DNA from: Paracyclopina nana | Lineage: Eukaryota > Arthropoda > Copepoda > Cyclopoida > Cyclopettidae | NCBI GenBank assembly: GCA_019096065.1 | Contig: JAGUCH010000004.1 | Coordinates: 5,270,001-5,334,000 of the forward strand | Direction: 5' to 3' | Length of the DNA: 64,000 nucleotides | In this document: positions 44,033 through 64,000 of the stretch, piece after piece | Position numbering within the stretch: the stretch's first letter is position 1 | Layout of the letters: the number at the start of each line of letters is the position of its first letter | Translations under genes and position numbers: made by a program | Notes under the pieces: generated by a model | Seen by the model: only the letters and a program-made list of their open reading frames with translations | Told to the model about the DNA's origin: nothing | Database searches by the model: none

Positions 44033-44740
44033 AAAGATTATGAGCCTAGGGAGTTCTCATATCGTATTTTAGTTTGACCAAAACTGATACTGGTTAGACC
44101 AAACTGACTTTAGTCCGGACAAAAGTCAGCATTCTTGTAGTGTTAAGTTTAACCAAAATCAGTTTTGGTTAGACCAAGCTGCAATATTAGAATGCCCTCA
44201 TTAAAATGCCTGTAACGTAATCAATTTAGATGGCTTCTCTTTTAATAGTTAAGCTACTACACCTAACTCTCTTAAAAATAGATGACACGATTGCTGTTTC
44301 CCACTTAGCTATGAGATTTAGAATGAACGTACACAGCTTTGAGTCTCTGTCGCTTTCTTTGAAAGCAGACGCCGCCAATAGAAATTGACAAAGTCCAGTG
44401 AGGGCTGCAATCTGAAAATAGTAACAGAGTTTTGTAATTTTGCAGCCAAAATTGCCAAGTTCCTGGTGTGTTCTACTTGAATTCTTTGTTTTGCCATGTT
44501 TGAAATCCCCTGAGCTCTTTCCTCATCCAGAGCCAAAAAGTGAATGGCTCACTGTCACCAAGTCCACATCTGTCTAAATCAGTAGTTTTGCGCCGCTAGA
44601 AAGCTAGAATGCCATTGGCAGAAAATGCACTTTGCTTCTTCATTATCATTTGAAAAGGGGGAACGCTATTGGTAGAAAATGCACTTTTTTTCATTCTCTT
44701 TTGACGGACGTGGCTTTGCAATTTATGGCTCTTTTGCAAA

Positions 44741-46135
44741 AATGATGCTTCGAATCAGCCAATCATTAATGGCGAGCGCATGAGTTTGGAAAATGTCAGA
44801 GAAACCTTTCGGGCCATTAATTTGGCGAGCTAACCTAACTTGAGCAAATTCTCAAAAATCAAAAAAATGATTTTTAGCTCGTTCTCATATTCATCTGCCA
44901 AGACTCCAGTAATATTCAGCAAGGCCGTAGACGCTCCCACTGACTTTTTTTCCTATCGGGTCTGCATTTGCTGAGCTATTAGCAACCAAAGAGCCTTGAG
45001 CTAGCTTAACTCAACAACTCGGCCAGCCCGGTTCCAACAAGGAATATCAGCATGCACTGTGGACGAAAAAGCCGTTTTCGCGCTCATGGGAAATTCCGTC
45101 AAATCGCCAAATTCTCATTTCAAGTCCAATTTTCAGCTTCTTATTTGAATGACTTCTAGGCTATCAAAAGTGTCCGAATTAGAGTGCATAGACAGATAAA
45201 GATGAAAATTCGCCTTAGAAACCAATTTGTCTTGGATTAAGTGTTTTTTTGAAAAAATGGTAGAAGAGCCAATCTAGTGATAGCCTGCTTTTAGGCTATA
45301 AGAAAAAAATGCTGCGTTGATCTCGCGACTTTTTGGGAAGAGCGTGAAAGCGGCATTTTAAACCACTGTGGCATGGTATTGTATGGTAAACCAATTAAGC
45401 CAGGTCGAGCTGAGCGCGCAAGCTAGCAGTGACCCAACTATGCTAAAAAGTCAAGTTACGTCTCCTGACTGAGCTGATTTTCCTTGTTGGAATGGGGCTG
45501 GGATATCAGCTTAGAACAGTACGGTAAAAATGATGCTTCGAATCAGCCAATCATATCTTGTTTAATGGCGAGCGCATGAGTTTGGAAAATGTCAGAGAAA
45601 CCTTTTGGGCCATTAATTTGGCGAGCTAACCTAACTTGAGCAAATTCTCAAAAATCAAAAAAATGATTTTTAGCTCGTTCTCATTTTCATCTGGCAAGAC
45701 TCCAATAATGTTCAGCAAGGCCGTAGACGCTCCCACTGACTTTTGTTCCAATCGGGTCTGCAATTGCTGAGCTATTAGCAACCAATTACGTCTCCTGGCT
45801 AAGCTGATTTTCCTTGTTGGAACCGGGCTGGGATATCAGCTTAGAACAGTACGGTAAACCAGTTAAGTCAGGTCCAGCTGAGCGCGCGAGCTAGCACTGA
45901 CCTGACTTCTATGCTTTTAAAAAAGTCAAATGTAGTCTCCTAGCTGACTATGATGATTTCCCTTGTTGGAATCGGGCTGGGATATCAGCTTAGAACAGTA
46001 CGGTAAACATGATGCTTCGAATCAGCCAATCATATCTTCATTAATGGCGAGCGCATGAGTTTGGAAAATGTCAGAGAAACCTTTCGGGCCTTTAATTTGG
46101 CGAGCTAACCTAACTTGAGCTACCTCTCAAAAAAA
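44741..46135. repeat. Nested tandem repeat array
   Basis: Three copies of a block starting AATGATGCTTCGAATCAGCC at 44741, 45529 and 46008, each continuing GGCGAGCGCATGAGTTTGGA and TTGGCGAGCTAACCTAACTT. Between them recurs a second block with TTCCTTGTTGGAA and GGGCTGGGATATCAGCTTAG. Copy B of the 310-bp dispersed repeat (45053-45360) has been inserted in the first unit. Copies differ by scattered substitutions. Confidence 0.82.
45053..45360. repeat. Dispersed repeat, copy B
   Basis: Near-identical, same-strand counterpart of 40224-40533 (see there), lying inside the repeat array. It lacks a few T/G bases relative to copy A. Confidence 0.85.
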
Positions 46136-46469
46136 AAGTCTAATGACGTCTCCTGAATATGCTGATTTTTCTTGGTGGAACCGGGCTATTTGGATATCCA
46201 AAAAATCAACTTGAACTGAAGTACGGATTTTAATGATTTACATGTAATTTGGTGGAATAATCTAAGGCCTGTTCGAAGATTTGGACGTCTATTACCTAGG
46301 TGAACTTTTCTGAGAATTTTAGGGGATGTCATTAACTTATACGACAAAAACCTGCTGTGCAATCTAATTTAAAGTGCATTCAGAAGCATTTGGTGTGGCA
46401 AATTCCATTAAGCTTTCCAGAAAAATTCCTCTTCTTCGTCAGTCGATTTTGGAAGCTCAACGAGTAAAA

Positions 46470-51601: not shown

Positions 51602-51606
51602 ATCTC
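51602..51606. repeat. Target-site duplication, left copy (ATCTC)
   Basis: Five bases ATCTC directly before the 5' LTR, repeated at 63244-63248 after the 3' LTR. A 5-bp duplication fits BEL/Pao integrases. Confidence 0.9.
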
Positions 51607-51837
51607 TGTAACGGCCAGAACTGGGCCGACGGCCTCCTCATCGTGGCCACCATCTTTAATTACCTTGTCATTATCTAATTACCTTGTGAATATGTTTGTT
51701 ATGATGCTAGCGGATCTCAGTATATCTTACCGCCAATTCAGTGTGATAATAAATACGTGTGATAGAATTCAAAGTTGGAGTTTTATTGATTCCTTTATTC
51801 GATGTATCCAATGGGAGGGTTAATCCTGACCATTACA
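51607..51837 (+). repeat. 5' LTR, 231 bp
   Basis: Begins TGTAACGGCC and ends CCATTACA, so the ends TG...CA are canonical. An AATAAA polyadenylation signal lies at 51748-51753, and a TATATC is found about 30 bp before it. No difference from the 3' LTR seen by eye. Confidence 0.95.
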
Positions 51838-51839
51838 GC

Positions 51840-51857
51840 TGGCGCCCAACGTGGGGC
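51840..51857 (+). promoter_or_regulatory. Primer-binding site matching tRNA-Lys(CUU)
   Basis: TGGCGCCCAACGTGGGGC starts 2 nt after the LTR and is the exact reverse complement of the last 18 nt (with CCA) of animal tRNA-Lys(CUU) as I know it. Primes minus-strand DNA synthesis. Confidence 0.9.
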
Positions 51858-51882
51858 CCGATGAAGGCCTCATTAGTGACCC

Positions 51883-54800
51883 ATGCCCAGGAAGATCCAA
51901 ACGGAGAGTCCTGTCAGGAGAAGTCGGAGGAAGCTTAATCTTCCTCCCACCGATTATGTCGAGTTATTTACGCCTGTCACCCCAAGAAGGATCAAGAGAG
52001 TGCCTTTCTATGATCCTATAGATGCTAGTCCTGAAAATCCGGTACTGTTTCACGGTTATGTACCTCGTCGAGATGGTTCCTTCCAAGCCATAGTCGGGAA
52101 GAAGCAGAAGAGGACCAACCTAGCCAAGAAATTAATGTCTGTTAAACACTCACCTGTCAACAAGGGGGCCAAGACTGGGCCACCCAACACTGGAGGGGCC
52201 GTTGCTACTGCTGTCTCTGTAGCCGCCACCCTCACCAATTTGGTGACCTCACTACCAAGGAGGTTCACCCCTTCACCCACTCCAAATCCGTTACCGTACT
52301 CTAGTACACCCATGCCGACCTGTACTCAGACTATAACGTCTGGAGACCAGACGCTTGTGCCTCAGCCTGGAGACGACAACCTGGATGGAGGAACCAACCC
52401 CTCCGAGAGCTCGGAAGGCCAAGCCGAGCTCGTGGAAGTCTTTGCTGATGTGCACAAGAACCCTGAGGACCCAGAGACTACCTCATCGCAAGGAGGATCT
52501 GAAGATTGGCATGTAATTGCAGAAGATCAAGGAAGGCCATCTAATGCGTCAGATTCCAGCTCCCGTCGGGAGACTGGAGAGGGCAATGCCTTGAGCTGGG
52601 GGACCTCTACGGGGCCACCTTCTGGCCAGTATCCTCCACCTGGAAACAAAGGAGAAAGTCAAGCTCCTATCGAGTCAGACAAGAGGACTGCTTCCGAGAA
52701 AAACCCGAAGAAACCCAAGACGAAGAAGAGTGCTGCCAGCCAGATGCCAAGAACGGCGGCGAGGGTTCAAGAGTTGACTAAGATAGCGGCGAGGAAATGC
52801 CTCGAAGCTCGTCAGGACACTCGTAGTGAGACTGGCTATGAGCAGCTATGTAAAATAAGGAAGAAGGTAGACGATGTGTGTAGAGAACTGCACAAATATT
52901 ATGGATATTATGTTGACACTGCCAGGGCTGCTCACATGGAGCTGTCCCCAGACATAACCAACAGAGCTCAAACTGCCTTGGAAGCTGGGAAGAAAGTATA
53001 TGAAGCTGTCTGTCAGAAAATCAAGCAGATTGAAGACAGTTTACAGACAGACGAAGATCCAGAAGTCGATTACCTCTTGTCTCAGTTGAGGGCCGAAGAA
53101 GAGGCTGATCAGTCCTCCTCACAGAATAAATCTGGGAAGGCAAAGTCCTCTGGGGGGTCGACTCAGATCTCACCGTCAGAATGTCGGCAGTCAGAGTCTG
53201 CAAACTCTCAAGGAGTTCGAGAGGTTGTCTTTTTGGATGAAAAAGGGCGTTACCTAAGGAGTGAGTTTGTGGAACCTGGGTCTGGTGCTGACAAGAAGCC
53301 CGGCGGTACAACCTCACGGGGAGACAGGAACTTGAAAGGACCGAGTGGTCAATCTGGAAAGGCAAAGAGTTGCCCCGTGGGAGATCAACAGGGCTCTGGA
53401 ACACCAACTAGATCCAATTGGCTCGAGAAGAGCAGCCCTCGGGGAAGGGACTGCCGGGGTCAGGAATCAGGCAGGGTTACCAGACCCAACCGGCGAAGCA
53501 GTGGTGGCAGTGACCCGCCTGATGACGATCCAGATGACGGACCCAGTGGTGACTCCGTTAAGGACCTGGGCTTGCTCGTTGAGTATGCCAAAGCCACTGA
53601 GGCTCTTCGAAGCATGATGGACAAAGTTGAGAGAGCCTTGGAGTTCAAGAGCAACACTATGGAGCTGGAAAAGGCCAGCATGCTGCTCGCTGCCGCCCTG
53701 AACCGATGGTTCCATGTCAAAGACGCTGTCCAGAATGCTGGACTGGGAAAGATGATCCCCTCAGGAGATTTTGGTCTACCCGACCAGGTATTCATGCTGC
53801 AGAAAAGAGTATCTGAAGCTCCCCCCACACACAAGTTTTCTGCCAACCACCGACCTCAAGCTCAAGGGGGAGCCCCAGCAGAGACCGGTTGGACTTCTGC
53901 AGCGTCGTCGACGCGTCCCCCTGGAGGAGCACGAGCTTTTTGGACAGGCTCTGCCAGTGAACCTCAGCAGGTTCTGGGATCCGCATCAGGAAGTCAACAT
54001 CCCTGGGGGCCAGTGGCCGGGGAGTTCATCAAGCCCAACAGTCGGTTGGGGTCTGCCCCTCAGGCCAACTCGGGTAGCTATATGCCTACTAATTATATTA
54101 ATCCTCCACCTGCCTTCAGAACTACTACAAGTGGATTCGGCCCTGCCGCAGGCTGGTCAGGCCCCGTGGGACCACAAGGAATTGGACAGACTGGTTGGGG
54201 CACAGGAGTGTCGAGCCAACCCGCCGCTGGATCCTCTAACAACCCGTCGGGTTGCCTGGCCGACGGCCAACCTCCTCAGCCTTCCTTCATGCCTGGAATG
54301 ATGCCTCAGCCTGTAGCTAGTTTTGGCTCCTATGATGGTATTCCTTACTCTGGATTCATCAGGGGACCCAGCGTAAAATTGGATCACCTTGAACTTCCTA
54401 AGTTTAGTGGTAACAACATACTGGAATATTTTCACTTCAAGGAACAGTTTAAGAGCTTTGTGCACGATAATGTCACTCTGAGCCTGCAGGAAAAGTGGGG
54501 ACGACTGCTGAAGCAGACTGCTGGAGGCCCCGCTTTCGACCTAGTCAATGGTCATAGGAAGGACTACGCTGGATACCTATCAGCATTGGCAGCTTTGGAC
54601 GACGACTACGGAAACTTGTCACGTCAACTACAGTGCATTACTTCTAAGCTGAAGAAGCTCCCTGTCTTAGATGTCTACAAGCCTGCTACTATAATGAAGG
54701 CCAGATCTGAAGTGAGGCTCATGTATCAGCAGCTTCGGCTGATCTTTGGAGACCCCATAGTTGATGCTGGAGCTTATGACCATTTCATCATGGACCTCCT

Positions 54801-57800
54801 CCGCATGACCAAGGCCACCACTAATTCTGTCAGGAGCTACTTGACAGCTTCAAGGATCGACGTCTTGACTCAAGATCATTTCGAGCATTGGGCCAGAGCT
54901 CAAGCTCACCAACACTTCGAAGATGTGAGCAAGACCGACGGTCTAGTGGACGAACTGGCAGTGGAGGACACTGCAGTCACCAAGCCTAGACCTCCACAAA
55001 ATCCGCGAGGCAGATTTCAACCCAGGCTAGGCCTGAATGTGGGCATCCTGGAGGAGGACTGCTGGGAACTTCCTGAGCCGGACGAGTATATTGAGGGGTT
55101 TGATTTGGACCCCCATGGCCAGGAGGCCTGTCTTCTGTTCAATATCACCGCGGAGGACCCCAAGCTGTTCACTAAGTGCCCACATTGCAATGAAAGCCAT
55201 AAACTTTTTCAGTGCGCTAAGTTCATGGAGCTGAGAGGTGACCAACGTCTCCAAGTAGCACTAGCCAAGGAAGCCTGTTTTAGGTGTTTTTTGGGTGCGC
55301 ACAAACTGGCCATCTGTACTCGCAGTTGGACTTGCCGTCATTGTCAGAGTAGATCCCACCATTCTTGCCTCCATGGTGCTTGGACGATGAGAAACGCCAA
55401 CAAGCCCACTGGCAAGGAGGGGCCCCATGGGCCTCCTGGACCTAATCCCGACGGGCATCACCTCAGTAGCCCCGCAGCGGGGCTGAAGACTGCTATAAAA
55501 ACGGTTGGCCTAGTGCAAAAGTCTCCCATGCTGGCATTTGGAGTGCTACCTGTTCGGGTGGCCAACCCTAAGATTCCAGGGGCCTGGTGTGAGGTCAATG
55601 CGTTTCTCGACAGTGGTTCTGAGCTGTCCTTAATTACTGAAGACTTATCGGCGAGACTCGGGTTGCAAGGAGTATCGGCTGACCAGATCTTGAGGACTAT
55701 AGCTACGGACACTTATGTGCCAAGCCAGCTGGTGGAGCTCCGGATTTTCTCACCTTGCCAGACCCAGCATTGGGATATTAGTGTGAATACGCTGCCGAAG
55801 CTGCCGTCAACCATGAAAACTCCGCCCTTGGATCAACTGAAGAAGAAGTTCAGATTTCTAGCGGAGCTGGACCTACCTGTCTACAAGAGCAATAAGCCCC
55901 CCCAGATCCTCATTGGAATTGATCAGTACCTCTTGATGGAAGCTACCTCAGTTGTTCACCACAAAGCTGGTGAACCTTATGTGAAGGACACCTTGCTAGG
56001 TCGCGTGGTCATATACTCTGACCCAGAGGCCAACATCATCGACGGGCCCTCCTTGCGGCAGGTGAACTTCTTGTCAGGCGGGGCATTGGAAGACCCGGTG
56101 GAAGCTTGCAGAACTTGTGGAGTGGAGACACCTCCTCCGCCGGAGGAGTTACTCAGGAAACTTTGGGAACTGGACGCTGTGGGAGTGATCGATCAACCTG
56201 ACGCAGAAAAACTCTTGAGTCTGAGCGATCAACAGGCTCTGGATATAGTCGCCAGTTCCATCTTCATCGACGATAAGAAACGGATCCACGTGAAGAGCCC
56301 TTGGAGAAACGGGGAACCCAATTTCGTCTGTAACGTAGAGGATGTGGTCCGAAGCACTTCCAGACTGGAAAAGAAGCTGAAGTTACATCAGCCTCACGCC
56401 CACGAAAAGGCCACCGCCGAATTGAAGGAGTGGCTAGATCTAGGATTCGTGAGGATACTTGACCCACAGGTTGATGCCATAAGGTTTGGCTATTTCTTGG
56501 ATTGGTTACTGGTTACGCGAAAAGACAAGCCATCGATGCCTGTCAGGCCTGTCTTTGATGGATCCAGAGAGCACAACGGGAAGTCTCTCAATGACGCCCT
56601 ATTATCTGGACCCAAACTTCAGAAGGACATATTCTACATCCTCTTGAATGCCAGGAAGCATCCAGTTTTAATTATCTCTGACATATCCAAGATGTTTTTA
56701 CAATTTGGACTACATGATGAAGACAAACCCTATCACCGGTTCTACTGGCAAGAACAATATTACGAGGCTAATAGCGTGTTGTTCGGCACCACTTCGGCCC
56801 CTTTTATGGCAGCCTTTGGAGTTAGGTACTTAGCAGATAAGTTTAAAGACACTTACCCTCTCGCCCACAAGGTGCTTAACGAGTCATTGTACGTTGACGA
56901 TGTCTGTGCTTCGCTGCCCAGCCTCGACGAGGCCAAAGAGGCCGTTCGACAGCTGAAGGAGTTGGGGTCATTGGGAAGTCTTCCCTTTCGCAAATGGGGA
57001 AGCTCCCACCCTGAAGTGCTAGCTGAAGTTCCAGAAGATTGTAGAATCGCTGGACTCAGCCTTGAATCCGAGGGAGACCCTGTTACCAAAGCATTGGGGA
57101 TGTACATCGACACTGTGGCTGATCAAATCGTGTTCAAGGCTCCTTCCTACGAGCCTTTTGAGGATCAACCTCTGACCCTTCGGATCATGGCCAAATACAC
57201 GCCCTCACTGTATGACCCACTTGGGTTGCTTGACCCCGTCACTGTGGTACCAAAGCTCCTCATTCAGAGAGTTGTTGCACTTCGGCCGATTTACAAAATT
57301 GACTGGGATACTTGCCTGGAAATGTTCGAAAGCAGAGAGCTGTCAGACGTCATGGAAAAGTGGCGCTCTTACGTGATTGACTTGAGACAATTAGAGGCTG
57401 TGAGAATCCCTAGACCATTTTCTCGTAGAACTGGGTGTGACAACGAGATTCACCTGTTCACTGATGCTTCAGAAGCAGCGCACGCAGCCGTGTCTTATTA
57501 CGTGGCCAGAGAACTGGGAGGTAGATCCTTGTCCACGATCATGTGCTCCAGGAAGAAGCTGGCCTCCTTATCAGAAAATCGCTCGATGCCTGAAAAGGAA
57601 TTGACCTCATGTGTTATCGGATCAAGACTTTTGGACTCTGTCAGAGCCGAGTTCAAGGAGGTGAAAAAGTTTTACATATGGACCGATTCTTCCACAGCTC
57701 TCACTTGGATTTCCAAGCCGGCCCACGCTTGGAAAGGTTGGGTGGCTCGACGAGTCTCTGACATTTATCAGAAAACCAAGTCTAACACCTGGAGGCACGT

Positions 57801-59925
57801 GCCTGGCAGCCTGAATCCATCAGACAAGCCCACGAGAGGCCTGACAGTAGTTGAGCTGTCAGAGTGTGATTTGTGGGTCGAAGGGCCATCTTTCTTACAG
57901 TTGGAGGAGACCGAATGGCCTAAAATGAAAATTGAAGTAAGTGATGATGATCTAGCTTTTGATTATCTTAAAATCCAGGCGGACAAGCTCACCAGGGAAC
58001 AAGTCAAGAGATCTGCCATGAAGAAAGCCAAGAAGGTGTTTCCTAAGGATTTTCATAGAGGTGAGCCAACGCCCCGGATTGTGAACCTCATCGAGGCTGT
58101 GGAAGCCCACAGACAAGAAACCACATTGGTCGTGCAAGGCTGTCTCACTGAAAGAGAAAGCAGAGCTTCAGAGCCACACGTCGTCTTGGCTCTAGCTATA
58201 GGGATGAATTTTGTACCACAACATCTTCTACCCGCCAACTACGTCATCGACATCTGGGAGAAGGCTGATCATGAATGCCCCTTGGACATTAAGAGATTTA
58301 GCTCTTACAGGAGAGCTGTGCGATCCTTTGCATATGCCTTGAGGTTCGTGAGACACACTAGAGAGAAAGAAAAGTTCAGAGCTGGACTTGAGCTCACTGA
58401 AAACGAGCTTTATTTGGCCGAGATGCAATTGGCTGTGTATCATCAGAGGGCCGCGTACAAGAAGGAACTTGATTACCTCTACTCTCGACGAGAGTGGAAA
58501 AAAGGCTCCAAATTGGCACCATTGGATCCCACGATCGGACCACATGGTGAGTTACGTCACAAAGGAAGACTTTTAGCAGCTCAGGCCAGTTGGATCGGAA
58601 AAATGAACCTGATATTGCCCTCAAGCTCTCTTGGCCGTCTGTACCTACAGGAACTTCACTTGAAAATGGGCCACGGCCTCAGCCGTACTCAGTACCTTGT
58701 CAAGGCTCAGGAGACCGTCTGGATGACAGGTGCTCGACGAGCAATGGAAAGTATTCTGAAAAGATGTTCAAAGTGTGTCAGGAAAAGATTGACTGAGTTA
58801 CCTCCTCACATGGGCCCCTTGCCACCTCACGCCATCCCTCTGACTGAGTTGCTGCCATTCAAGTACGTCTCCATGGACTTGGCCGGACCTTATCACATAA
58901 AATGTCGTCGTACTATAGTGGATAGGCACATACTCATCATTGTCTGTCTACACGTGAAAGCCATCCATACCGAAGTGTTAGAGGATCTTACCTCGGATGC
59001 CTTGTGGAGAGGGTTGGAGCGCTTTGTGGCAAGGAGGGGCTGCCCAAAGCATATACGCTCAGATCACGGCACTAACTTTCGAGGCGTCAGGAACCGAATC
59101 GCCTCTGATCCTGGCTATCATCGATTTGTAGCTCAAGTGCTGAAGATGGATTGGGACCGGCTTCGTCGAAGCGCCACCGAGTTGGGAGTGGTCAGCTGGA
59201 CCTTCAGCCCCCCTCGGGCTCCTCACTTCAACGGGGCGGCCGAAGCGGCTGTCAAGTCCTGGAAGAAAGCTCTAAGCCGAGTCGTCAACGGGACTGAGTT
59301 TCTCCTGGAAGACTTCATCACGGCTGTCGCAAAGTCCGAGGCTTTGGTGAACTCCCGGCCGCTGGGAACAATAGAAGATTACTACATTACTCCGTCTCAT
59401 TTCCTCACCTCTGGGCCTCCCGGCCAATTGGTACCGTCGGTGCCAATCCAGGATGTGAAAAACTACTCCGATTGTCTGGCCAATCTCGATCGGAGAATCC
59501 AAAGCCTCTGGGATGCATTCGCTGGGGAGCTCTCTCTGGAACTGAGGAGACAAGCTAGATGGCACAATCATCGCAAGAACCTGAAAGAAAACGAAGTAGT
59601 CGCCATATTGGACAAGAAATACTTTGTGAAAAGAAATGAGTGGCCGCTTGGCATCATCGAAAAGGTTAAAGTGGGCGAAGATGGAGTTGTTCATAGAGCT
59701 TGGGTTCGCCTTGTCGATCCCTTTACGGGACAACCTAAGTGCTTTGAAAGAGGAGCTCAATGGCTGGTGCCACTTCAGTGGATTTCTGACCAGGCTGCTC
59801 TTGATCATTTTTTAGCCAGTGGGCCCGACGGGATAGAGCCGTTGGGCCGAGAAAAAGACTTGTTGTCCTCGGACAGTGGGTGGTCAAGACTGCGAGAAAT
59901 CGCGGAGTCAATAGGTGTACAATAG
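51883..59925 (+). CDS. BEL/Pao gag-pol polyprotein
   Basis: One uninterrupted frame of 2,680 residues. Residues 1 to about 830 are Pro/Ser/Gly-rich with charged segments and match no gag region I know. The BEL-type gag core starts near 835. Zinc fingers begin at C1099 (C-x2-C-x3-H-x4-C), then C-x2-C-x4-H-x4-C and a third Cys/His cluster. The aspartic protease has DSGS at D1243. Reverse transcriptase has YVDD at 1670-1673; RNase H has FTDAS with D1861. Integrase has the HHCC finger (H2259, H2264, C2295, C2298) and catalytic D2332, D2394, E2454. All key catalytic residues are present. The ATG is the first after the primer site. The last 40 codons contain a -1 frameshift signal. Larger than usual BEL polyproteins. 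Confidence 0.93.
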   Translation: MPRKIQTESPVRRSRRKLNLPPTDYVELFTPVTPRRIKRVPFYDPIDASPENPVLFHGYVPRRDGSFQAIVGKKQKRTNLAKKLMSVKHSPVNKGAKTGPPNTGGAVATAVSVAATLTNLVTSLPRRFTPSPTPNPLPYSSTPMPTCTQTITSGDQTLVPQPGDDNLDGGTNPSESSEGQAELVEVFADVHKNPEDPETTSSQGGSEDWHVIAEDQGRPSNASDSSSRRETGEGNALSWGTSTGPPSGQYPPPGNKGESQAPIESDKRTASEKNPKKPKTKKSAASQMPRTAARVQELTKIAARKCLEARQDTRSETGYEQLCKIRKKVDDVCRELHKYYGYYVDTARAAHMELSPDITNRAQTALEAGKKVYEAVCQKIKQIEDSLQTDEDPEVDYLLSQLRAEEEADQSSSQNKSGKAKSSGGSTQISPSECRQSESANSQGVREVVFLDEKGRYLRSEFVEPGSGADKKPGGTTSRGDRNLKGPSGQSGKAKSCPVGDQQGSGTPTRSNWLEKSSPRGRDCRGQESGRVTRPNRRSSGGSDPPDDDPDDGPSGDSVKDLGLLVEYAKATEALRSMMDKVERALEFKSNTMELEKASMLLAAALNRWFHVKDAVQNAGLGKMIPSGDFGLPDQVFMLQKRVSEAPPTHKFSANHRPQAQGGAPAETGWTSAASSTRPPGGARAFWTGSASEPQQVLGSASGSQHPWGPVAGEFIKPNSRLGSAPQANSGSYMPTNYINPPPAFRTTTSGFGPAAGWSGPVGPQGIGQTGWGTGVSSQPAAGSSNNPSGCLADGQPPQPSFMPGMMPQPVASFGSYDGIPYSGFIRGPSVKLDHLELPKFSGNNILEYFHFKEQFKSFVHDNVTLSLQEKWGRLLKQTAGGPAFDLVNGHRKDYAGYLSALAALDDDYGNLSRQLQCITSKLKKLPVLDVYKPATIMKARSEVRLMYQQLRLIFGDPIVDAGAYDHFIMDLLRMTKATTNSVRSYLTASRIDVLTQDHFEHWARAQAHQHFEDVSKTDGLVDELAVEDTAVTKPRPPQNPRGRFQPRLGLNVGILEEDCWELPEPDEYIEGFDLDPHGQEACLLFNITAEDPKLFTKCPHCNESHKLFQCAKFMELRGDQRLQVALAKEACFRCFLGAHKLAICTRSWTCRHCQSRSHHSCLHGAWTMRNANKPTGKEGPHGPPGPNPDGHHLSSPAAGLKTAIKTVGLVQKSPMLAFGVLPVRVANPKIPGAWCEVNAFLDSGSELSLITEDLSARLGLQGVSADQILRTIATDTYVPSQLVELRIFSPCQTQHWDISVNTLPKLPSTMKTPPLDQLKKKFRFLAELDLPVYKSNKPPQILIGIDQYLLMEATSVVHHKAGEPYVKDTLLGRVVIYSDPEANIIDGPSLRQVNFLSGGALEDPVEACRTCGVETPPPPEELLRKLWELDAVGVIDQPDAEKLLSLSDQQALDIVASSIFIDDKKRIHVKSPWRNGEPNFVCNVEDVVRSTSRLEKKLKLHQPHAHEKATAELKEWLDLGFVRILDPQVDAIRFGYFLDWLLVTRKDKPSMPVRPVFDGSREHNGKSLNDALLSGPKLQKDIFYILLNARKHPVLIISDISKMFLQFGLHDEDKPYHRFYWQEQYYEANSVLFGTTSAPFMAAFGVRYLADKFKDTYPLAHKVLNESLYVDDVCASLPSLDEAKEAVRQLKELGSLGSLPFRKWGSSHPEVLAEVPEDCRIAGLSLESEGDPVTKALGMYIDTVADQIVFKAPSYEPFEDQPLTLRIMAKYTPSLYDPLGLLDPVTVVPKLLIQRVVALRPIYKIDWDTCLEMFESRELSDVMEKWRSYVIDLRQLEAVRIPRPFSRRTGCDNEIHLFTDASEAAHAAVSYYVARELGGRSLSTIMCSRKKLASLSENRSMPEKELTSCVIGSRLLDSVRAEFKEVKKFYIWTDSSTALTWISKPAHAWKGWVARRVSDIYQKTKSNTWRHVPGSLNPSDKPTRGLTVVELSECDLWVEGPSFLQLEETEWPKMKIEVSDDDLAFDYLKIQADKLTREQVKRSAMKKAKKVFPKDFHRGEPTPRIVNLIEAVEAHRQETTLVVQGCLTERESRASEPHVVLALAIGMNFVPQHLLPANYVIDIWEKADHECPLDIKRFSSYRRAVRSFAYALRFVRHTREKEKFRAGLELTENELYLAEMQLAVYHQRAAYKKELDYLYSRREWKKGSKLAPLDPTIGPHGELRHKGRLLAAQASWIGKMNLILPSSSLGRLYLQELHLKMGHGLSRTQYLVKAQETVWMTGARRAMESILKRCSKCVRKRLTELPPHMGPLPPHAIPLTELLPFKYVSMDLAGPYHIKCRRTIVDRHILIIVCLHVKAIHTEVLEDLTSDALWRGLERFVARRGCPKHIRSDHGTNFRGVRNRIASDPGYHRFVAQVLKMDWDRLRRSATELGVVSWTFSPPRAPHFNGAAEAAVKSWKKALSRVVNGTEFLLEDFITAVAKSEALVNSRPLGTIEDYYITPSHFLTSGPPGQLVPSVPIQDVKNYSDCLANLDRRIQSLWDAFAGELSLELRRQARWHNHRKNLKENEVVAILDKKYFVKRNEWPLGIIEKVKVGEDGVVHRAWVRLVDPFTGQPKCFERGAQWLVPLQWISDQAALDHFLASGPDGIEPLGREKDLLSSDSGWSRLREIAESIGVQ
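59802..59850 (+). promoter_or_regulatory. Predicted -1 programmed ribosomal frameshift signal
   Basis: In the gag-pol frame the heptamer T TTT TTA (59808-59814) fits X XXY YYZ exactly. The -1 frame has a stop at 59802-59804 and is then open to 63017. Seven nucleotides after the heptamer a stem can form: 59822-59831 with 59839-59848, ten pairs including one G-U, loop of seven (GATAGAG). Heptamer, spacer and stem all match the canonical layout of retroviral frameshift sites. Efficiency cannot be judged from sequence. Confidence 0.8.
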
Positions 59926-60218
59926 TGCTTGAGGACTCAACCTTGAGGCCGCCGGCCTCAAACCAGACATTCCGCTCTCTAAACCTCTTCATGTTTGTGT
60001 TTTTCTACGCCGCGCGGGCGCTGCGAAAACAACTCTGCAGAGCGTCACGTTCAGCAGCTGCTGCGGAAAAACTTGGCAGCTCGGGCAGAATAGGCCGCTC
60101 TGGGCTGACCTTGTTGACTGTTTTCGGGACGCCCCGGAAAATACTCGAATTCTTAGGACGCGTCACTTTGTCAACAACTATCAACGAGGGAAGACGTGCT
60201 TCGAGCTTGGGCTTCAAG

Positions 60219-63017
60219 ATGAGCGAAGAACGACAACGCCGAGGTAAGAGATCTCTTGACCAATCGAGTAATCGTCGAGCTAACTCCGGTCAGGAGCCAG
60301 AGCTCGAGTCAAACCTCCAAATCGCCGATTCCTTCCAAGTTCAGTCCTCTCCCGAGCTGCGCATCGACTGTGACGAATCCTTGGACCTTGGAACTGAGGA
60401 CGAAAGTGCACCTGCGGCCTCCACCTCGAATAAGTCACCTTATTCCTCTAAACGACCTCGACTCGTAGACTACAACTGCAGCGACGACGAAGAAGTGACC
60501 TTCCAGGTCGCCTTGCCAAGAGACGACCCTGTCCTCGTCGACGACGCACCACTAATTTTCTTGCCTTTTCCAGACTTGCCAGTAGTGCCAGAGGCCGACC
60601 CCCGCCGACGGCGGGAGCTCGACCAAGAACGGAGACTCTCAGCCGAATTAGCAGGAGCCTCCATAGCTCGGTTCAAGGATGAGCTGGCAAAACTTCGAGG
60701 ACTGGAGCTTCTGGATTGCTTTGCCGACGGCAGCGTCATCTGCCTCGGCCACTCAACCTCTTATGGATCGCCAGTGCCCAATGAGCAGCGATCACGTGCC
60801 GACCGACTCCATGACGCTTATCTGGCTTTGGACAAAGATATGTACAGATTGGGACTTCTGGAGTCCGGTGTACCGCCAGTTAAAGTGCTTCAGATCGTCC
60901 AACCTGACTTGTACGCGATCTACCGTCGGTACTTGGAAGAGTGCATCACCCAAGGAGTCAGGCCTTTCAGTCTGTCAGTCTTGTGTGACGAGAAGAGAGC
61001 CTTGGCAGCTCACACCCTGGAAAAGCTCACGGTCGTGCTTGAAAGGGTGCACTCACGCCAGCTCAACATCCGTGCTGAGCGTCTGGAGGCCGAAGGCCTC
61101 AAACATCGGGCTGCCACCTTGCGTGCTCTTCCCAGGATCATCAATGATCCACTTCCACTGTGGGTCAAGGGCTATTGGACCGTGCTAGCCAGGGATGCTG
61201 GGCTGGCCAAGCGTGGCGGAGCATTGGAATTGTTGGCCGACTCCACTCACAACGCCCCCTTGACTCAGCAACTGATTAAGGCACCAGTAGTCAAACCCGA
61301 CCTCAATCAAGTGCCACATTGTAGGCAGGCCTTAGCCATATTCAAGAGCTACCGTCCTGTCCCCTTGTGCGGCCGTTTGGGCTGCCTAATGGACAATTTT
61401 GCCGAGTTGCCCGATGACCGCTTGATCCTTGGCGACCCCTCAGATAGACATCTGGTCTACGAGCTCCAACGGGCTCTATGTGATCTCCAGATGGGAGTGG
61501 GCCCTTGGGACAACCGCCTCAAAGATGGACGCCGAGATTTTGTTGTCCTTGATCGTGACGAGGACTGGAAGCGAGTGCGTGGTCAACTAGTGAAAAGTGG
61601 GTTTTTTAACTCAGTCAGGAGACACGCAATCTGCGCAGCCGCGTTCATGAACTGGACTGACGCCGCATTGAAGAAACATGGGTTTCCAGCCGCCAGCGGA
61701 AGGCGCAAGGGATGCTTCACCAACCTGCTCCTGTTCGCTCCAGTGGGGGTCATGCTAGTGGTGAGAGCTCTCTATGGAGGTCAAGGGACCTCTGCCAAAG
61801 GGGCTGCAATTCCTGAAGAAGTCGTCAAGATGCTGGAGGATCCCAAGATTCGAAAAGTTCAGTTCTCCATCCATGATGAGAAACGCTATGAGCATATGGG
61901 CATCGAAATTACGAATAGGATCGACGCCACTCTCCTCACTCTGTTGCTGTTTCCTCAGCCAGGAGTGCCAGCCTCCGAAATGCAGGGTGGTATCACCTTC
62001 GCTGCCGCTCAGCTCGACTCACCGACGGTGCCTTTCGTGGAACATCGGCTCCGCTCCAATCAACTCAAGGAGAAGCCTAAGATCGACGATCTTCTTGTCA
62101 TCAACCCGGAGGTCGACGATTCAAGCGTGCCCTTTGAACAATGGGGTTGGAAGATGCAGCTATACGCCTGGACTATGGGCACATTGCCTGTAGCCGTCGG
62201 CTTTGCTCTCGGTACTCGGTTCATGGAGTTACATAAGTACGACATGCGAAGCGACTGCCTGCGTTTCGTGCATCTGGGTATGGATCTGGTGAGGAACAGG
62301 CCTGGGATCTGCCATGTCGCTGGCACTGACCGCGATCGTCGACCATTTGGAAAGGATGAAGCTTATCGCAAGTCTCTGTCCTCTGAAGGGCTGCCCTTGA
62401 AACCTCAGTGGTTCCACCTGTTGCCTAGTGCTGCCAGCTCTGTAAACGAAGGAGCCGTGGCCAGGAAGTTCCTGCTACGTGGTTTGCCCTACTCCCTGGA
62501 TTTGTTCGGACTGAAGAAGGCCGCTGCCGCTGACTTTCTCGCTTATGTCGGTGCTCCCCTCAGTGGACTTAGCTACAAGGATTTAGTCAAGAATCTTCTG
62601 AGGCCTGGCCAGTACAACCCTCATCTGTGCTCTCGTTGTGGCAGCCCAGAGCATCCATCGGACTCAGGCGAGTGCTCCTCGTGGCTGCTGAGGTGCATCT
62701 ACTGCAACTCTTCCGACCACCTCGTCGAGGTCTGTGAGAAGATGCTGGAGCGCTGTGAGCTTTGCCAAGATCTTGGCCACAACAAGCAGCAACATCAGAC
62801 CGACAATTGGATTGCCCTCAGGGAAAAGTTCGCCATCTTTAGCCTTTTGCATCACAAGCTTTTCTACCTGCATGACGGGATGGGGCTGGATCTGAAGGAA
62901 GATTCTGAAGGTCGAGTGGTCTTGGACTTAGTAGCCGATGAGAAAGGCCGCAATTTTGCCGATCGCCCTGTGCCGTTCACCTTGGCATCATGCTCGATCG
63001 TGGAGGGGCGTCTGTAA
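60219..63017 (+). CDS. Second element frame: exonuclease-like domain plus zinc knuckles (not env)
   Basis: Long frame in the -1 phase relative to gag-pol, open from 59805. From the best-placed ATG (60219, AAGATGAG) it encodes 932 residues; by frameshifting it would be a C-terminal extension of gag-pol. No signal peptide or clear membrane anchor is seen, so it is not env-like. Residues about 440-665 resemble the WRN/RNase D exonuclease fold: FMNW (M477-W479) where DxEW is expected, IPEEVVKMLEDPKIRKVQFS then HDEKRYEHMGIE, NRID (D569), and YAWTMG (Y649) where YxxTD is expected. Motif I and III acids are replaced, so catalysis is unlikely. Three knuckles follow from C804: C-x2-C-x4-H-x6-C, C-x2-C-x4-H-x4-C and C-x2-C-x4-H-x4-H. 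Nucleic-acid binding is the likeliest role. The TAA stop lies in the 3' LTR. Confidence 0.75.
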   Translation: MSEERQRRGKRSLDQSSNRRANSGQEPELESNLQIADSFQVQSSPELRIDCDESLDLGTEDESAPAASTSNKSPYSSKRPRLVDYNCSDDEEVTFQVALPRDDPVLVDDAPLIFLPFPDLPVVPEADPRRRRELDQERRLSAELAGASIARFKDELAKLRGLELLDCFADGSVICLGHSTSYGSPVPNEQRSRADRLHDAYLALDKDMYRLGLLESGVPPVKVLQIVQPDLYAIYRRYLEECITQGVRPFSLSVLCDEKRALAAHTLEKLTVVLERVHSRQLNIRAERLEAEGLKHRAATLRALPRIINDPLPLWVKGYWTVLARDAGLAKRGGALELLADSTHNAPLTQQLIKAPVVKPDLNQVPHCRQALAIFKSYRPVPLCGRLGCLMDNFAELPDDRLILGDPSDRHLVYELQRALCDLQMGVGPWDNRLKDGRRDFVVLDRDEDWKRVRGQLVKSGFFNSVRRHAICAAAFMNWTDAALKKHGFPAASGRRKGCFTNLLLFAPVGVMLVVRALYGGQGTSAKGAAIPEEVVKMLEDPKIRKVQFSIHDEKRYEHMGIEITNRIDATLLTLLLFPQPGVPASEMQGGITFAAAQLDSPTVPFVEHRLRSNQLKEKPKIDDLLVINPEVDDSSVPFEQWGWKMQLYAWTMGTLPVAVGFALGTRFMELHKYDMRSDCLRFVHLGMDLVRNRPGICHVAGTDRDRRPFGKDEAYRKSLSSEGLPLKPQWFHLLPSAASSVNEGAVARKFLLRGLPYSLDLFGLKKAAAADFLAYVGAPLSGLSYKDLVKNLLRPGQYNPHLCSRCGSPEHPSDSGECSSWLLRCIYCNSSDHLVEVCEKMLERCELCQDLGHNKQQHQTDNWIALREKFAIFSLLHHKLFYLHDGMGLDLKEDSEGRVVLDLVADEKGRNFADRPVPFTLASCSIVEGRL
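63002..63008 (+). promoter_or_regulatory. Short polypurine tract
   Basis: GGAGGGG, four bases before the 3' LTR and inside the second frame; the only purine run in the right place for plus-strand priming. Short compared with typical tracts. Confidence 0.5.
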
Positions 63018-63243
63018 CGGCCAGAACTGGGCCGACGGCCTCCTCATCGTGGCCACCATCTTTAATTACCTTGTCATTATCTAATTACCTTGTGAATATG
63101 TTTGTTATGATGCTAGCGGATCTCAGTATATCTTACCGCCAATTCAGTGTGATAATAAATACGTGTGATAGAATTCAAAGTTGGAGTTTTATTGATTCCT
63201 TTATTCGATGTATCCAATGGGAGGGTTAATCCTGACCATTACA
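63013..63243 (+). repeat. 3' LTR, 231 bp
   Basis: Starts TGTAACGGCC and ends CCATTACA; no difference from the 5' LTR was found by eye. AATAAA at 63154-63159 would end the element transcript. Its third to fifth bases (TAA) are the stop codon of the second frame. Confidence 0.95.
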
Positions 63244-63248
63244 ATCTC
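63244..63248. repeat. Target-site duplication, right copy (ATCTC)
   Basis: Matches 51602-51606. Confidence 0.9.
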
Positions 63249-63373
63249 TTCTCTACATAATTTGTTATTTGCTAAAACCTGGGCTTTCAAAATGATATAG
63301 GAAAGGCGAATGTAATTAAATTATTAATTATCAGATTAATCATGCCAAACTTTGGTCAGTTCTCTGGGCAAAA

Positions 63374-63994
63374 ATGGCAATTCAAGTTGGGCCAGCAAAA
63401 AAAGACATTTTCATGGCAAACCTCAGCGATGAGGAGCCAAAAGAAAACAAGTGCATTGAGATCATCAAAAAGTATTTCATTGAAACCTCAATTCATGGTT
63501 TGAAGTACATTTTTGAGAATGGAAGGCATGTGACTGAACGGATCTTTTGGCTGATTGCTTGTGGGTGTCTGTGGGCTATTGGTTTCTTCTTGATAGCTCA
63601 AGTGAGAAATTCTTACTTCAGCTCATTAAAATCATTTTATAATAACCCTTTTCTTCGAATAGATCATTCAAAAATGGCAAGACAGTCCTGTCTTGGTATC
63701 TTTTGACTCCAAGGTGACACCAATTTGGGAGATTCCATTTCCAGCAGTGACCATTTGTAACATGAACAAGGTTCGAAAAAGTAGGGTGGAGTATGTGGAA
63801 GCTCAAAAGGCAGCCAATCCCTCAGAGATCAAGTGGCACCATGAACTTCTTTTCATTGATGAAGTGTGTCACGGTCAAGGCCACACCAGTGAAAGCGCTA
63901 GCGAAGCAGAATCTGAGGAAATTAACATCGATGGAAAAGAGCTCCATAAATTGCTGGCAGATTTTGCTCATCCATGTGACAGGATGATTCTGAG
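63374..63994 (+). CDS. DEG/ENaC sodium channel, pickpocket type, 5' part only
   Basis: N-terminal part of an amiloride-sensitive-type sodium channel. Two exons are visible (63374..63601 in phase 0, 63663..63994 ending at a donor AG|GTAGTA), 186 codons so far; the rest is off the window. The cytoplasmic N-terminus leads to ETSIHGLKYIFE, the gating-associated H-G segment before TM1, and TM1 is IFWLIACGCLWAIGFFLIAQ. The extracellular start has the diagnostic FPAVTICNMNKVRKS motif, followed by the early finger region. TM2 and the selectivity filter are not in view. The start codon lies 131 bp after a fresh retrotransposon insertion, so its promoter or 5' UTR may be disrupted or replaced by the 3' LTR. 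Confidence 0.88.
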
Positions 63995-64000
63995 GTAGTA

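Follow-up and report, generated by a model that had tools for sequence, protein, structure and literature searches.

How would a retroelement that already encodes Gag and Pol in one reading frame express a further long open reading frame (ORF) lying behind pol? The question is raised by a complete, intact BEL/Pao retrotransposon with long terminal repeats (LTRs) in a 64,000-nt stretch of the Paracyclopina nana genome, which is referred to here as the window and whose coordinates are used throughout. The second frame of this element, ORF2, overlaps the end of gag-pol in the -1 frame, and a preliminary description of the DNA had placed a canonical frameshift signal at the junction. We followed this up in the window and in the 92 Mb host genome (10 contigs), where two further copies, C5 and C4b, form a family of three with the window element. 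From these comparisons we estimate a probability of about 0.8 that the element carries a functional -1 signal of the HIV-1 type at the 3' end of gag-pol, which would yield a Gag-Pol-ORF2 fusion, with free ORF2 protein probably made as well.

A probable frameshift signal at the end of gag-pol

The junction comprises the following features.

51880..59925, forward strand: gag-pol frame, 2681 codons from stop to stop, with DUF1759, Peptidase_A17, reverse transcriptase (RT), integrase zinc-binding and DUF5641 regions
59805..63017, forward strand: ORF2, 1070 codons in the -1 frame; its first 121 nt overlap gag-pol and its stop lies inside the 3' LTR
59808..59814, forward strand: slippery heptamer T TTT TTA in phase with gag-pol, read directly and kept in the family copies
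59815..59821, forward strand: 7-nt spacer GCCAGTG, of equal length in all three copies
59822..59848, forward strand: frameshift hairpin from a predicted fold, 10-bp stem and 7-nt loop, with a 3' arm, CCGTTGGGCC, invariant in the three copies

The gag-pol frame reads CAT TTT TTA at 59806-59814, which puts T TTT TTA in phase, and the -1 frame opens from 59805, one codon before the heptamer, behind a TGA at 59802-59804. The arrangement is that of a canonical -1 site, X XXY YYZ in the phase of the 0 frame where the -1 frame opens. The predicted hairpin begins 7 nt downstream in all three copies, within the 5-9 nt expected of a stimulatory structure; in the window element its stem pairs 59822-59831 with 59839-59848 around a loop at 59832-59838 (-23.9 kcal/mol, z -2.30 against shuffles). 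The heptamer and its phase, the opening of the -1 frame, the spacer and the dimensions of stem and loop are all as they had been described. Only five in-phase XXXYYYN heptamers with AAA or TTT as YYY occur in the whole of gag-pol, and a canonical in-phase heptamer arises in the overlap in 1.9% of synonymous shuffles. The 50-nt fold behind the heptamer ranks 2nd of 2661 codon positions of gag-pol.

If the signal functions as its form suggests, most ribosomes would read CAT TTT TTA and stop at 59925, giving Gag-Pol, while a minority, held up by the hairpin that begins 7 nt further on, would move back by one base at U UUU UUA and enter ORF2. The product of slippage would be Gag-Pol-ORF2, with a C-terminal, probably RNA-binding and nucleocapsid-like protein that may enter particles within the fusion and then be released by the protease. 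The slippage itself and its efficiency, like the entry of the fusion into particles and its cleavage, are what we infer from the DNA sequence.

Conservation of the junction in the window family

In the C5 copy gag-pol and ORF2 are both unbroken; the C4b copy has a stop codon in the part of pol that was read and an ORF2 open for 1079 codons. Of 336 synonymous pol sites, 285 differ between the window element and C5, and because these sites are thus saturated, silent similarity among the copies is informative. All three keep CATTTTTT. Alignment with other copies, which had been proposed as a check, found the heptamer retained in both diverged copies, once as TTTTTTA and once as TTTTTTG, so that its last base in the three is A, A and G. 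Both frames are kept at the junction in 3/3 copies, and so are the spacer of 7 nt and a hairpin whose 3' arm does not vary. The 50-nt folds behind the heptamer rank 6 of 825 and 13 of 820 codon positions in the two other copies.

In a three-way scan for silent conservation with segments of 15 codons, 59809-59853 was the top of the 352 segments in 3' pol and exceeded all 824 in ORF2. With segments of 20 codons the top of pol still covers the site, but an ORF2 segment beside the 3' LTR is higher (4.33 vs 4.15). At 59806-59853 all three copies agree in nine of the 10 usable codons (P 9.3e-6). Nowhere else in 3' pol are synonymous sites as strongly conserved as in the heptamer and hairpin (P about 9e-6). 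Behind the hairpin silent conservation drops, save for a brief stretch of identity at 59869-59883; an RNA signal would be expected to leave such a pattern more than dual coding would. All three copies keep the -1 frame open over the 402-411 nt between the heptamer and a conserved AUG at 60219; the per-copy probability of this openness is 0.05-0.11 for the linker (from the gag-pol stop to the AUG) and 0.03-0.11 for the overlap.

A second region of unusually strong synonymous conservation lies inside ORF2 at 60600-60644, around the codons of PRRRR..LDQERR.

A probable second frameshift site in a separate clade

Related elements elsewhere in the host genome (given L-numbers) provide a second instance of the device, at an integrase motif that the window element also has.

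59398..59417, forward strand: integrase HFLxSGPPG motif of the window element, with the non-slippery codons CAT TTC CTC, at the position where the other clade has its probable frameshift site

In this deep clade, junctions with a long -1 overlap have TTTTTTA or TTTTTTG at the integrase HFLxxGPPG motif. The pattern CATTTTTTRNNNNNNGGNCC occurs 66 times in the genome vs 3 times for a reversed control. Thirty-one of the 66 matches fall in 120 pol places, 28 of them at the integrase motif and 3 at the window-family junction; among the remainder, outside the pol places, several are copies of one another. Among the motif matches listed for the 120 pol places, with motif places assigned to pol by eye, 28 are slippery at the integrase motif (25 TTTTTTA, 3 TTTTTTG), 73 have other codons and 19 are unmatched.

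Fifteen of the 28 slippery elements were read, and the -1 frame is open in 15/15, in 13 of them to the end of the examined sequence; in L072 and L073 it closes after 494 and 665 nt. The TTTTTTA of these two elements was considered as a separate case and rejected, since it is the clade site with its -1 frame closed at those points. In elements with other codons at the motif, the window family's own included, the -1 frame closes within 26-194 nt in 23/23 (23 of 30 control loci, near-duplicates left out). An open -1 frame was the reason for including six of the 15 (L065, L066, L067, L069, L070, L071), and the heptamer was the reason for L072 and L073. L082-L088 were chosen by their slippery codons and form the unbiased part of the sample, the -1 ORF2 of L088 being already known at the time. 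In each of the seven the open -1 frame extends over 799 codons and runs into the ORF2 core (E 7e-33 to 1e-21), and six of them had earlier given no match to the window's ORF2 protein.

For the 13 elements other than L072 and L073, the probability that the overlap of 205-247 codons stays open under synonymous shuffling is 0 to 0.004, and the +1 frame of the same overlaps contains 10-20 stops. L066 has no ATG in the entire -1 overlap, upstream of the heptamer included, so AUG initiation cannot explain its open -1 frame; L086 has none in the downstream part of the overlap, the part examined. The folds behind the integrase motif average -20.1 kcal/mol in slippery elements vs -11.8 kcal/mol in controls (Mann-Whitney P 7e-7, uncorrected for kinship).

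In the tree, a branch with 100/100 support divides the slippery elements from the window family. Because the two are thus separate, the window site, at a second HFLxxGP motif close to where pol ends, looks independent or relocated. We consider it very likely that -1 frameshifting into ORF2 is real and occurs at two different sites, the end of pol and the integrase motif.

ORF2 as a shared module

A genome search with the ORF2 core, about 800 residues long, gave at least 66 matches, or at least 56 places when 10 short fragments, each next to a listed place, are left out. For 53 of these 56 places a partner pol match lies upstream (106 of the 120 pol places were used), with ORF2 in frame -1 in 32, +1 in 13 and 0 in 8. 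ORF2 is present in all 20 relatives whose junction was examined, broken in two of them, and the cores of the window element and its distant relatives are 25-30% identical. The protein ends in three Cys-His knuckles of the kind that characterizes Gag and nucleocapsid proteins.

62628..62795, forward strand: three Cys-His knuckles of ORF2, CX2CX4HX6C, CX2CX4HX4C and CX2CX4HX4H, with invariant Cys/His alignment columns

The pattern resembles the triple Cys-His box, a feature of BEL Gag in the accessible part of PMC554778. The knuckles give weak matches only: zf-CCHC at best E 0.029 (in 4 of 18 cores), lin-28 in PDB at E 0.023, and nucleocapsids at E 0.6. Searches of Pfam, NCBIfam, PDB and protein databases with ORF2 returned at most such weak knuckle matches, and no relatives were found in protein databases with single-sequence, 2-row or 18-row alignment queries (the best approximately 8000 candidates scored for each). 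Scans of viral contigs with pieces of pol gave no match. The ORF2 core has no homology to this element's own Gag that hhalign could detect (probability 0.1%, knuckles only), and an AlphaFold2 model of the core from a single sequence was uninformative (mean pLDDT 34.3). In Pfam there was no env match for the window ORF2 or the 18 cores. The window core has one hydrophobic stretch (mean hydropathy 1.91 over 19 residues, by simple hydropathy with no membrane or signal-peptide predictor); such a stretch exceeds a threshold of 1.6 in 7/18 cores and is below it in 11/18. A membrane role seems unlikely, since most of the cores do not share the stretch. To judge from its knuckles, the ORF2 protein is probably RNA-binding and nucleocapsid-like.

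Other arrangements of ORF2 in relatives

In many relatives ORF2 is present but a canonical heptamer is not; the frame of ORF2 relative to gag-pol is then 0, +1 or -1, or a gap separates the two. Most of the 32 arrangements in frame -1 belong to such relatives. The distance from the gag-pol stop to the opening of the ORF2 frame is 102-436 nt in L009, L011, L013, L019, L026, L028 and L032, and 179-541 nt in L060-L064. Other relatives have an AUG in the ORF2 frame that overlaps the gag-pol stop or shortly precedes it, at position -1 relative to it in L012, L021 and L022 (AUGA in the last) and at -4 to -19 in L023, L024, L029, L035, L030, L033 and L020. No in-phase heptamer serving the ORF2 frame was found in the overlaps with an AUG at the gag-pol stop (30 loci; heptamers with a last base G excluded). 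That the AUG overlaps or precedes the stop in -1 and +1 frames alike suggests termination-reinitiation in these sister lineages.

A conserved (A/G/C)CAAATGGGGGA stands at the end of gag-pol in L012, L021, L022, L023, L027 and L032, with near variants, and is similar to the tract CCAAGGGGGGAC that many of the same elements have between ORF2 and the presumed 3' LTR. It may be a second polypurine tract, or the scar of an ORF2 added behind an old one. A conserved CTAGTCA occurs 28-74 nt after the gag-pol stop in L011, L012, L013, L019, L020, L022, L026 and L028, often near short palindromes such as GCGCATTGCGC or GAGCCATGCTC.

Frameshifting weighed against other routes

Two further features of the window family bear on how its ORF2 is expressed.

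60165..60197, forward strand: candidate internal promoter, initiator (Inr)-like TCACTTT with A+1 at 60165 and a downstream promoter element (DPE)-like AGACGT at +28 to +33 (60192-60197)
60219..60221, forward strand: conserved ORF2 AUG with A at -3, a candidate independent start, in 3/3 copies

Several observations count against expression of ORF2 by frameshifting, or limit how far the case for it extends. The shuffle z-scores of the hairpin taken alone are modest (-2.30, -1.60 and -1.85 in the three copies), and the family evidence for the heptamer comes from three related copies, of which one combines TTTTTTG with a stop codon in pol. Compensating changes in the stem, for which the preliminary description had recommended a search, did not appear: within the paired positions of the three family copies only the 5' arm varies, which gives one-sided changes and no compensatory pair, and among 15 clade members counts were near those of the controls; the 3' arm of the clade hairpin slides, and neither register clearly beats the controls in covariation. 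The linker of the three copies has no amino-acid constraint special to the ORF2 frame and would therefore be a spacer. Because the slippery clade and the window family are separate branches, the clade supports the window site only by analogy, and the contrast between slippery and non-slippery elements is also a contrast between clades. By coordinates, 4 of the 12 slippery places with an ORF2 match carry ORF2 in the +1 or 0 register; two of the four are L072 and L073, in which the -1 frame stops before ORF2. Copies that lack the heptamer and keep both frames, which had been named as grounds for abandoning the frameshift interpretation, do exist outside the window family, as described above; inside it the heptamer is kept 3/3. 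The interpretation is supported in part, by conservation in the family and by the same device in a separate clade; among the relatives it describes one of several arrangements of ORF2. Finally, since a conserved AUG lies behind an Inr/DPE-like promoter, frameshifting may not be the sole route in the window family itself.

This last point leads to the strongest competitor, in which translation from AUG 60219, on a short transcript starting at the Inr/DPE pair (A+1 60165), yields ORF2 solely as a free protein and the heptamer and hairpin go unused. The pair, promoter-like by the Inr/DPE consensus used here, is rare at strict match and exact spacing, with two occurrences in the 11.2-kb body of the element and a single one in the window's first 51.6 kb; in the family the AUG is preceded by TCA(G/C)TTT and AGACGT, with the pair in the same place in C5 and a variant, TCAGTT with GGACGC, in C4b. 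The A at -3 of the AUG is likewise kept three times in three, an unconstrained linker is what such a start would leave, many relatives have an ORF2-frame ATG 219-549 nt past the stop (chosen among several), and in other lineages the ORF2 frame opens 102-541 nt past it. However, the motif was sought only after the alignment had been viewed, the strict pair is found in 0/18 relatives outside the family in the stretch scanned, and relaxed, imperfect pairs occur in 3/19 (L022, L027, L029). Initiation at the AUG alone also leaves unexplained both the silent conservation of heptamer and hairpin and the -1 frame open in 3/3 copies, and we regard it as unlikely. Expression from a spliced subgenomic RNA, in the manner of env in gypsy-type elements and retroviruses, seems far less likely still. 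Acceptor-like stretches were seen by eye before ORF2 in several relatives, the linkers of the three family copies contain a branch-point-like CTGAC with pyrimidines, and a perfect donor, GAG/GTAAGA at 60244 (60241-60249; the slash marks the junction), is conserved at the nucleotide level in 3/3; but that donor lies downstream of the ORF2 AUG, and no donor-like site is common to window and C5 in the first 860 nt past the 5' LTR. The notion that the HFL and GP codons merely happen to be slippery and GC-rich could draw on the small number of family copies and on the modest z-scores, but it must contend with the P of 9e-6 for the heptamer-hairpin stretch, the fold rank of 2 in 2661 and the all-or-none contrast in the other clade, and we give it almost no weight.

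Frameshifting at the heptamer is thus the reading that we prefer, and free ORF2 is probably also made in the window family, from AUG 60219 behind the putative internal promoter. As for the group as a whole, the odds appear to us even that one accessory BEL/Pao protein is expressed by several routes within one genome: a -1 shift at the integrase site in the deep clade; an independently arisen -1 shift at the end of pol, perhaps together with an Inr/DPE promoter, in the window family; and, in other lineages, either a start that overlaps the stop (AUGA and similar) or a separate start further downstream.

The element and its surroundings

From LTR to LTR the element covers 51607-63243, a length of 11,637 nt (11.6 kb). 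Its LTRs, of 231 bp each, are 100% identical, and the 5-bp target-site duplication ATCTC is present on both flanks.

51602..51606, no strand: target-site duplication ATCTC, left copy, read directly; the right copy is at 63244-63248
51607..51837, forward strand: 5' LTR, 231 bp, TG...CA, from repeat detection with edges read; 100% match to the 3' LTR
51840..51857, forward strand: primer-binding-site-like stretch just inside the 5' LTR, by position only
63000..63009, forward strand: polypurine-tract-like stretch preceding the 3' LTR, by position and sequence, with synonymous conservation there
63013..63243, forward strand: 3' LTR, 231 bp, from repeat detection with edges read

Assignment to BEL/Pao follows from these LTRs with their target-site duplication, from a Pao-type Peptidase_A17 region accompanied by RT, and from a triple Cys-His box in Gag. 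Peptidase_A17 (E 2.8e-27) and DUF5641 are above the Pfam cut-off; RVT_1 (E 6.4e-6) falls slightly under it, and DUF1759 and the integrase zinc-binding region are also below. The Gag box was recognized by eye as CX2CX3HX4C, CX2CX4HX4C and CX2CX4HX4H, and no domain model matched it in a Pfam-type scan of the window frames; in the excerpted text of PMC554778 such a box is a Gag feature of BEL elements. A further trait of the group is an 18-nt primer-binding site for tRNA Arg or Gly; the stretch at 51840-51857 is a candidate for such a site. The genome size of Belpaoviridae is given as 4.2-10 kb (PMC8742986), and because of ORF2 the element lies above this descriptive range.

The element ends approximately 130 nt upstream of the first ATG of a frame resembling ASC, the amiloride-sensitive sodium channel, on the same strand (63320-63998); the C5 copy likewise adjoins a hydrophobic frame. 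Elsewhere in the window, 44669-46216 contains direct repeats of 73-224 nt in two to four copies. CCTAA telomere-like repeats, suggestive of an arthropod host, were seen at one end of contig C5, and long CCTGG-type tandem repeats at the contig ends C1:1-400 and C4:9687684-9688084.

Comparison with known systems

The best-known place for frameshifting in retroelements is between gag and pol. In the elements described here it would occur in or behind pol, adding a conserved third protein that has no env match. If the fusion is packaged, these elements would carry a second nucleocapsid-like protein at low stoichiometry; since the genome contains relatives both with and without the signal at one and the same motif, comparing them can test the role of the fusion directly. 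Should several routes indeed coexist, the group would be a natural laboratory for the gain, regulation and uncoupling of a fused third gene.

The HIV-1 signal has a short spacer and a single GC-rich hairpin, as does that of the window element. The heptamer is also the same, U_UUU_UUA being the HIV-1 gag-pol frameshift site in the available portion of PMC5009743. The two differ in what is joined: in HIV-1 the shift joins gag to pol, whereas in the window element gag-pol is one frame and the shift would add a third module behind pol.

The Belpaoviridae profile describes LTRs, gag and pol, and an env-like third gene in some members, with gag and pol as one or two overlapping genes (PMC8742986). 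The window element shares the LTRs, gag and pol, and a third gene; the profile mentions neither a frameshift behind pol nor an ORF2-like gene. The preliminary description had held that BEL/Pao elements normally have a single gag-pol frame and knew of no frameshift at the end of pol in the group. In the consulted parts of the open-access literature (including PMC3118150 and PMC11952523) we likewise found no description of frameshifting behind pol in BEL/Pao; besides a single frame, overlapping gag and pol genes are described (PMC8742986).

The closest arrangement is that of SIRE1, a plant Ty1/copia Sirevirus, in which, according to excerpts of PMC2829016, one stop codon separates pol from an envelope-like frame and is subject to stop-codon suppression; the same excerpts mention a proposed internal promoter in related elements. 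As we propose for the window element, a third protein is attached to Pol by recoding where pol ends. SIRE1 differs in using readthrough and not a -1 frameshift, in belonging to plant Ty1/copia, and in its envelope-like protein, to which ORF2 has no such match. Within BEL/Pao, overlapping frames are mentioned for C. elegans elements in the part of PMC9094657 consulted. Atlas virus, with a single Gag-Pol-Env frame (same part of PMC9094657), and roo, with a single gag-pol-env frame (excerpt of PMC3087523), are BEL/Pao elements in which a third module behind pol is delivered as a fusion to Gag-Pol, as we propose for ORF2. In these two elements, as the same excerpts present them, the fusion arises from one continuous frame with no frameshift signal described, and the third module is an envelope protein; in the window element a -1 shift at U UUU UUA would attach a probably nucleocapsid-like protein instead.

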